The position numbers and the translations under genes were made by a program. The notes beneath the pieces are model-generated. The model ran no database searches, was not told the origin of the DNA, and saw only the letters and a list, made by a program, of their open reading frames with translations. This document shows positions 53,601 to 56,600 of a stretch of DNA of 64,000 bases, piece by piece. Source of the DNA: Imbricaverruca yamaguchii (taxonomy: Eukaryota; Arthropoda; Thecostraca; Neoverrucidae); assembly GCA_034440575.1 (NCBI GenBank), contig JAOTOL010001626.1, forward strand, positions 1,422,001-1,486,000, in the 5' to 3' direction. Position 1 is the first letter of the stretch. Every line of letters starts with the position of its first letter.

Positions 53601-56600
53601 AAAGCTCGTCTATTGAAATACGCAAGCTCTTGGAAGTATGAAGCTACAATTCCAATTTATGCAGTAGTGCTAAAATTCATCCTTGGATATGTTATAGTCT
53701 CTTCAAATGCGTTGTGGTCGTATCGGAACTATGGTCGCTCCGACAGGCCCTCTCAGGTTGTGTCCCGCGCTGACCGGTCGGGTCAAGTTGATCTCTTCTA
53801 GTCGAAGAAAATCACTTGACCTGTGTATTATGGAAATTATTGCCACTCGTCCACCCGCCGGTACCAGCGGACGTCCGCCCGCCGGTACCAGCGGACGTCC
53901 GCCCGCCGGTACCAACGGACGTCCGCCCGCCGGTACCAACGGACGTCCGCCCGCCGGTATCAGCGGACGTCCGCCCGCCGGTACCAACGGACGTCCGCCC
54001 GCCGGTACCAACGGACGTCCGCCCGCCGGTATCAGCGGACGTCCGCCCGCCGGTACCAGCGGACGTCCGCCCGCCGGTACCAACGGACGTCCGCCCGCCG
54101 GTATCAGCGGACGTCCGCCCGCCGGTACCAGTGGACGTCTGTTCATCAACAGCCTGGTCCCTCGTCATGCAAGCCCAGTTTTTAGTTGTCCTTCGGACGT
54201 CGTTGAAAGCTACCAAAGCTTTTATTCCAGTGATGCCATGTCACTTCTCTACGAAGCATTTCATTTGAAGTTTGTCATTGCCTCCTGTTGACTGTAGAAG
54301 TGATATCAGGCTTCAACCACTGCCGGCTTCTAACGGCTGCATGCCATTGCTAAGCTTGTTATATCCACCCTGTCTTTGGATGTTTAACCCGCGGTTGTAT
54401 TAGACGGAAACCTGTTTAAAGATACGTTTTGCAAAATAGTTAGACATCCTTATTGTGGGATCACCGAGTCCACCCGCGATAAATCAGCGTTAGATTTTGG
54501 CGACTCTGTATGGCCTAGCAGACGAATGTGGTAAAAAATAACAAAAAGCTCATCTTCAAAGACTTGATGTTAGGTACGACGTTAATGATTTCGTGATGAA
54601 TCACTGAAACCCAGTGTCCAATAATTAGCTTTCATCGGCACTTTTTTGTGTTTCGTGATCTGACCTGTCATGCACAGACGGATGGAGCGCCGGCTGTGTG
54701 CTGTTCTGACCTGACCTGACCTGACCCGTACATACATATGGAGCGCCGGCTGTGTGCTGACCTGATCTGACCTGACCACAGACGTATGGAGCGCCGGCTC
54801 TGTGCTGACCTGATCTGACCTGACCACAGACGTATGGAGCGCCGGCTGTGTGCTGGCGGAGCTGCTGCTGGGCCAGCCCATCTTCCCGGGCGACAGTGGC
54901 GTCGACCAGCTGGTGGAGATCATCAAGGTGTTGGGCACGCCCACACGCGAGCAGCTGGGCGAGATGAACCCCAACTATACTGAGTTCAAGTTCCCGCAGA
55001 TTCGCGCCCATCCCTGGCAGAAGGTGGGACATGTGACGGGATGTCTGTGTGGTGGGAGACCTGTCCCCCAGCTCCGGAGCGCCCACCTGGCAGGTGGGAC
55101 AGGTGACGTGTTGTGTGGTGGGGGAGACCCTGGCGAAGGTGGGACAGGTGCGGGATGTCTGGGGGGGGGGGGCCCTCGGAGCTGCCCACCCTGGGAAGGT
55201 GGGACAGGTGGGATGTCTGTGTGGTGGGAGACCTGTCCCCCAGCTCAGTCCGGAGCTGCCCATCCCTGGCAGAAGGTGGGACATGTGACGGGATGTCTGT
55301 GTGGTGGGAGACCTGTCCCCCAGCTCAGTCCGGAGCTGCCCACCCTGGCAGAAGGTGGGACAGGTGACGGGATGTCTGTGTGGTGGGAGACATGTCCCCC
55401 AGCTCAGTCCGGAGCTGCCCACCCTGGCAGAAGGTGGGACAGGTGACGGGATGTCTGTGTGGTGGGAGACCTGTCCCCCAGCTCAGTCCGGAGCTGTCCA
55501 TCCCTGGCAGAAGGTGGGACAGGTGACGGGATGTCTGTGTGGTGGGAGACATGTCCCCCAGCTCAGTCCGGAGCTGCCCACCCTGGCAGAAGGTGGGACA
55601 GGTGACGGGATGTCTGTGTGGTGGGAGACCTGTCCCCCAGCTCAGTCCGGAGCTACCCATCCCTGGCAGAAGGTGGGACAGGTGGTTGAATGTCTAAGTG
55701 GTGGGAGACCTGTCACCTACTTTTAGTCCGGAGCTGCCCACCCCAGCCAGCTCCGTTTAGATATTCTAGTTATGTCCGAAAAGACACCTGTCGGGAGATT
55801 GTTTTGGCCCCCAAAGGACACCCTTGACTTCCCGAATTGACTTCGATGAAACTCCACGGCGTACAACGGTAGCAGCTGTCGCCTTTACACCCTGCTCGAT
55901 TTCTGGCGTATGTCATCGTGCCATCGCAATCTTATCAGCATTGTCGTGTCCATTTATCATTTGTCATCAGTCGTAATCATTCGATCAATTATTTGTCAAC
56001 ATGATCTTTTGCCCGGACTTTGTCTCATCGTATTGACAAATGGTGTGATGGCATCAGGGATTTTGATGTCCGCCTGCTGCCCACCACGACGAAAAACTAA
56101 TTCCAGAACACTATGTGATGAGACACCTTGTGGACACAGAACACCTGTCGGTGGCTCGTCGTACCTCCCACCCATTCGCCCATCGGCTCATCCCAGCCTC
56201 ACTAACATGTGGCGGCCCTCTCGTGTACGTGGTGTCACGTGTCGCCGATGTCACCCGAGCCTTGTTGACGTGCCGCGGCCATGTTGTGCCCGTGATGTCA
56301 CGTGTCCTGTATCGTGTGATGTGCCGCTGTGTTCTCGTGTAGCCGATGTCAAGTACGTGTGTCGGAAATGTCGACGTGTTGGCTTGCGTGAGTGAGGTAA
56401 TGTCTTGTTTCGCGTTTCGTTCCGATTTCATTCATGGACGCTAAATGACCAAACCTGGGCGATGCGCCCCAAAACTCCAACCAGCCGACCAACCAACCGG
56501 TTTCATTCACTAGTTACATGTCATGTCTGCGGTAGTTCTCCCCATCATTTCTGGGATAGTTCTTCCCAGCATGTTTGGCTAGTTCTCCCCATCGTGTCTG

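Follow-up and report, generated by a model that had tools for sequence, protein, structure and literature searches.

Splice-site minisatellites are already known from human genes, and the cited papers, in the parts drawn on here, provide the closest points of comparison. In human CBS, a 31-bp variable number tandem repeat (VNTR; c.1444_1467+7) of 16-21 copies lies at the exon 13/intron 13 boundary (PMC2630376). In another human CBS variant, 844ins68, splicing strongly prefers the more distal site, which leads to normal mRNA (PMC2630376, PMC1334203); PMC2630376 speaks of a 'splice donor', but the title of Romano 2002, which it cites, says 3' splice site. The minisatellite of human IFI6 (6-16, G1P3) supplies multiple donors, and its downstream units are used, giving three mRNA species (PMC4526556, citing Turri 1995). 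An 8-bp duplication at exon 7/intron 7 of OCT1/SLC22A1 generates an alternative product that makes up 38-52% in minigenes and 0.3-0.6% in liver (PMC8137991). Internal tandem repeats in human duplicated genes show that minisatellite expansion alters exon-intron structure, with 27 intron modifications (PMC2812944). Here we describe an exon of a candidate GSK3 gene in the barnacle Imbricaverruca yamaguchii, contained in a stretch of 64,000 nucleotides (the window; GenBank assembly GCA_034440575.1, contig JAOTOL010001626.1, positions 1,422,001 to 1,486,000). Both borders of this one exon lie inside tandem arrays, which is the unusual part and appears to be uncommon. Most likely, the two arrays are minisatellites that arose separately from duplications spanning the exon borders and are largely neutral, and the canonical junctions dominate.

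The array structure was taken from one assembly, and arrays were called with Tandem Repeats Finder (TRF). In coordinates of the window, the exon and the repeats around it are:

54656-54855, + strand, upstream array with a 48-bp unit, 3.9 copies, TRF score 242
54678-54703, + strand, decoy acceptor copy 1, AG at 54676-54677; its use would add 152 nt, shift the frame and give a stop at codon 11
54782-54807, + strand, decoy acceptor copy 3, AG at 54780-54781; its use would add 48 nt, in frame, with TGA at codon 11
54830-55023, + strand, the flagged GSK3 coding exon (exon 7 of the initial annotation), 194 bp
55006-55743, + strand, downstream array with a 79/80-bp unit and 10 copies that carry a donor, the exon's own among them
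55258-55326, + strand, array copy whose 69 bp (18 exon and 51 intron) are all shared with the exon edge; its donor follows 55275

The upstream unit consists of an intron end rich in CTGAC/CTGAT, CACAG, and the first 26 bp of the exon. It terminates in CTGATCTGACCTGACCACAG on the intron side, followed by ACGTATGGAGCGCCGGCTGTGTGCTG on the exon side. The real exon start (54830) sits inside the last copy of this array. The AG is intact in the copies with borders at 54677/54678 and 54781/54782, as it is at the real acceptor (54829/54830), and a fourth upstream copy (~54734) is without it. The initial annotation had given each 48-bp unit a 3' splice site and 26 bp of exon sequence. This holds for the unit, but copy 54782 is identical to the real acceptor only across 29 bp of intron and the first 18 bp of exon, after which a single mismatch falls within the 26 bp. 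The segment 54601-54830 also contains 13 branch-point-like CTRAY pentamers, against ~1 expected by a simple 1/256 reckoning.

The downstream unit consists of the final 18 bp of the exon, the donor AAG/GTGGGA (the slash marks the exon/intron border), and intron, running from GCCCATCCCTGGCAGAAG before the border into GTGGGACAGGTGACGGG after it. The exon's own end (55006-55023), with the real donor after 55023, is the first copy. Further AAG or CAG/GTGGGA donors follow after 55093, 55138, 55198, 55207, 55275, 55354, 55433, 55513, 55592, and 55672. Their spacing is 77-80 bp from 55198 onward and shorter before (70, 45, 60). The part called by TRF spans 55177-55743 (79 bp, 7.2 copies, score 951). 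It starts only at 55177 because the first three intron copies (55093, 55138, 55198) carry indels; these indel-bearing copies lie between the exon end and the TRF-called part. The initial annotation had counted about nine repeats carrying ~15 bp of exon. Nine copies beyond the exon's own are indeed present, but the exon portion is 18 bp. The 69-bp identity of copy 55258-55326 stands out, as the other eight downstream copies measured match the exon edge without a break over only 10-25 bp. Such identity suggests that the exon edge itself recently took part in an exchange or duplication.

Several lines of evidence indicate that the arrays are real and local. In 200 dinucleotide shuffles of 54400-56000, any array appeared in 2/200 with a top score of 55, compared to the observed 242 and 951. 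Probes of 30 bp were placed across all 14 GSK3 exon borders and compared, ungapped and on both strands, with the whole window. A tandem copy matching at 30/30 was found for only two borders (54830 and 55023), and the other 12/14 borders reached at most 20/30. Thus, the statement of the initial annotation that the exon is flanked by tandem repeats of its own splice sites was borne out. Outside 54600-55760, the two border probes matched at a maximum of 19 and 17 of 30 positions on the + strand, and their minus-strand maxima were 19 and 20. A dispersed repeat as the source of the units was rejected, with the border probes at no more than 20/30 outside 54600-55760 (+ strand) and anywhere on the minus strand. 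The 48-bp and 79-bp units show no likeness to each other beyond a 10-bp match at chance level. Each unit joins an exon edge to an intron edge and is without a copy elsewhere in the window, which agrees with the proposal that minisatellites were born across the exon borders.

The remaining exons of the gene, like the flagged one, were located by tblastn with the whole human GSK3B and then trimmed to AG/.../GT borders and joined in frame:

21464-21552, + strand, GSK3 exon
22112-22213, + strand, GSK3 exon
22701-22784, + strand, GSK3 exon
38438-38548, + strand, GSK3 exon
46480-46717, + strand, preceding GSK3 exon, ends NYTTNI, donor ATTG/GTGAGT
62714-62900, + strand, following GSK3 exon, ends FNFTEQ

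The joined reading frame of the seven exons encodes 334 aa on the + strand, and this tblastn search did not place the two ends of GSK3, which lie beyond human residues 32-365, in the 64-kb window. Exon 54830-55023 joins exons 46480-46717 and 62714-62900 in frame. Its first codon (D) is split with exon 46480-46717 and its last codon is complete. In PDB, it matches GSK3 alpha/beta best (E ~2e-37), and the joined protein matches the kinase family PF00069 with 216 bits. These matches assign the exon to a putative GSK3 gene whose kinase domain is closest to GSK3. Thirteen bacterial/archaeal kinase models of NCBIfam also matched, all far under their cut-offs, and were set aside.

Comparison with relatives places the gene among barnacle GSK3 sequences. 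The 334-aa joined protein is 96% identical to GSK3 P0002 of Pollicipes pollicipes, 94% identical to a second Pollicipes GSK3 (P0004), and 93% identical to Amphibalanus GSK3 (P0005). A tree was built from 12 rows (the window protein and 11 proteins chosen among the best 120 database matches). In it, the window protein, P0002, P0003, P0004, and P0005 clustered at 100/100, and the window protein paired with P0002 at a modest 85/87. P0002, the closest named relative among the matches listed, is a protein without an insertion at the 55023 junction. Because two different Pollicipes GSK3 proteins, encoded on contigs that differ in length, are present among the matches listed, the description of the kinase as 'essential' in the initial annotation is weakened. 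Two Pollicipes GSK3 genes are consistent with the whole-genome duplication reported for barnacles in PMC11331182; a text search of the available part of that paper returned no mention of GSK3. Two side observations concern the protein itself. The DFG motif in exon 46480-46717 reads LKLIDFG in the window and P0002, and LKLCDFG in the other five alignment rows, a variant that perhaps marks this GSK3 copy. The annotated GSK3 P0001 of the ostracod Darwinula stevensoni contains most of the sequence of exon 54830-55023 twice in tandem (GGCVLAELL...AHPWQKVF). The exon may have been duplicated there, perhaps for alternative use, or the annotation may be wrong.

What would the spliceosome produce if it used the decoys? 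On the acceptor side, the initial annotation had predicted a stop within 11 codons, and accordingly both intact upstream acceptors (2/2) give 10 residues and then a stop. On the donor side, 10/13 alternative donors combined with the real acceptor reach a stop, which lies in the extension for 3 of them and in the following exon for 7. Donors 55032 (+9 nt) and 55275 (+252 nt) keep the frame, and donor 55433 shifts it yet leaves it open through the end of the next exon. Skipping exon 54830-55023 also leads to a stop. The 252 nt added by the donor after 55275 make 84 codons without a stop, so the in-frame gain of 84 residues that the initial annotation expected from a donor at 55276 is correct as a reading of the frame. 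In contrast, its suggestion that redundancy has protected the exon boundary is unlikely as stated, because 2/2 intact upstream acceptors and 10/13 donors would reach a stop and donor 55433 would shift the frame. When measured against a seven-row alignment, the array copies alter invariant residues, from V to G in copy 54678 and from C to S in copy 54782. Copies that carry stops and altered invariant residues beside an intact exon protein have the look of neutral copies next to a constrained original, and from this we infer that the arrays are mostly neutral.

The repeat content of the window provides further context. Merged TRF arrays with a period of at least 10 served as the background; there are 46 of them, covering 27.6% of the window. 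One of the 14 exon borders lies inside a TRF-called array, compared to a mean of 3.9 expected from circular shifts. Counting the indel-bearing donor copies raises this to 2/14, the real donor border being 154 bp from the TRF-called array. Borders near arrays numbered 3 against a circular-shift mean of 4.3 within 25 bp, 4 against 5.2 within 75 bp, and 6 against 6.6 within 160 bp. An enrichment of arrays at exon borders was therefore rejected for the 14 borders, and the count of 2/14 leaves this conclusion unchanged. Since proximity to borders is no greater than chance, arrays next to exons are ordinary in this window. The notable part is that two unlike arrays sit on one exon and that each has captured its splice site. 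The double array has most likely arisen incidentally in a repeat-rich genome stretch.

Other repeats of the window are as follows. A 36-bp array of ~16 copies (38548-39141) begins 21 bp past the donor of exon 38438-38548, and the 30-bp probe across that donor border is without a copy in it. Array 46104-46409 stops 71 bp short of the acceptor at 46480, and array 62643-62690 stops 24 bp short of the one at 62714. The intron before exon 54830-55023 contains a 3-kb array (49163-52243; 20-bp unit, 156 copies) that yields long open frames of up to 1062 codons. By eye only, ~47500-48500 resembles a decayed retrotransposon-like reading frame, and 48190-48350 and 53390-53450 resemble a tRNA-derived short repeat. 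Two simple repeats are also present: (GCC)n at 2993-3818, with 275 copies that match at 100%, and (GTCT)n at 43799-44625, with ~207 copies.

The following sequence of events could have produced the two minisatellites. Local tandem duplication would have occurred across the intron/exon border of the GSK3 exon and, separately, across its exon/intron border. Both arrays may then have grown through slippage, unequal exchange, or conversion. By happenstance, each unit carries a splice module, either a branch-point-like CTGAC/T with AG and the exon start, or the exon end with its donor. The exon is thereby bordered by decoys about as strong as its own splice sites. Selection against loss of the normal kinase product would keep the innermost pair (54830/55023) in use as the presumably dominant junctions. 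The decoys would be used rarely, and their products, mostly with premature stops, would come from transcripts that are probably destroyed.

Two observations weigh against this account. First, the real donor scored 8.15 with a weight matrix, and eleven decoys (those scoring at least 8 between 55024 and 55759) scored 8.05-8.31. The same nine bases as in the real donor occur in 8/11 decoys, and the three others scored 8.05-8.31. Donor strength thus fails to separate the real site from the decoys, and some mis-splicing would be expected. Second, the 69-bp identity occurs in exactly the copy, 55275, that is in frame, which could hint at selection; one recent exchange explains it.

Among the alternatives to two mostly neutral minisatellites, the one that survives best, although unlikely, is that the arrays act as a copy-number rheostat. 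In other words, they would divert a length-dependent share of transcripts to non-productive or extended isoforms and so tune GSK3 between individuals. The near-equal scores of decoy and real donors and the predominance of non-productive outcomes among those tested are in its favor, as is the finding reported in PMC5188458 that more 31-bp repeats at exon 13/intron 13 of human CBS lower activity. However, arrays in the window lie no closer to exon borders than expected by chance, and a second GSK3 gene is recorded for Pollicipes. A broader proposal is two-sided, length-coded splicing control, in which copy number would set the amount of productive GSK3 mRNA, vary between individuals, and be seeded repeatedly by minisatellites in the genome. 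We regard this as very improbable.

Could the assembly itself have inflated or collapsed the copy numbers, or placed false copies at the borders? An artefact of this kind is slightly less credible again. Scattered substitutions and indels set the copies apart, as should be the case in true arrays; two unlike units flank one exon; and many other arrays are present in the window.

There is only a slender chance that donor 55275 serves an extended isoform, in which 84 residues would be inserted at K303/V304 of human GSK3B and alter partner binding. The insertion point, deduced from the alignment of the exon with 1i09 (residues 240-303), adjoins what we take to be the docking loop for Axin/FRAT. 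The 252 nt are in frame and without a stop, and the donor is identical to the real one within a 69-bp identical context. However, no match to the extension and its junctions was obtained at E<=10 among 410 protein-database candidates scored, a weak absence because barnacles are named in only three of the best 120 matches. In addition, the 84 aa matched no Pfam family at E 0.001, they are what the repeat yields when translated and are rich in Gly, and the exon would reach 446 nt.

Least probable of all is that RNA structure steers splicing to the real donor by hiding the decoys. Several array copies hold GGGACAGGT...ACCTGTCCC, which are able to pair, and the exon-edge copy and copy 55275 carry ACATGT instead. 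However, openness was predicted as 0.39, 0.52, and 0.34 for the real donor at flanks of 60, 100, and 200, so that it varies with flank length, and these values overlap with those predicted for ten decoys (0.25-0.45, 0.26-0.64, and 0.23-0.46). Masking is not claimed, as folding does not separate the real donor from the decoys.

The two minisatellites would make this exon a compact natural test of how the spliceosome chooses among many near-identical sites on either side of one exon with a conserved product. If junction fidelity is near-perfect, the strength of the nine donor bases is clearly not the deciding factor. If it is not, repeat length would be a heritable control of GSK3 dose.

How does this locus compare with the known systems? 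The internal tandem repeats of PMC2812944 concern recent human paralogues, and its results section does not describe both borders of one conserved exon. Among the literature matches listed on splice-site repeats, none, in the portions available, concerned one exon with both borders in separate arrays, which is a weak absence. The barnacle downstream array resembles the CBS VNTR in that the unit holds an exon end and a donor, as read for CBS from the name c.1444_1467+7. The CBS repeat is 31 bp long, on the donor side only, polymorphic, and functionally associated, whereas the barnacle unit is 79 bp downstream and arrays are present on both sides. The OCT1/SLC22A1 case is alike in that a tandem donor duplication creates an alternative donor, but it is a single 8-bp duplication. 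Its gap between minigenes and liver, as reported, calls for caution against taking decoys as used. Like IFI6, the barnacle exon has a minisatellite that multiplies a splice donor, contiguous with the real exon border, which is set here by GSK3 homology. The IFI6 array is described on the donor side only, and its donor use is reported from mRNA. The IFI6 unit is also short, ~12 bp. Finally, CBS 844ins68 parallels the acceptor side, because its tandem copy carries an intron end, AG, and an exon start, as barnacle copy 54782 does with its match of 29 bp to the left and 18 bp to the right. By the description available, 844ins68 is one extra copy and polymorphic, whereas the barnacle exon has about three extra copies in an array.
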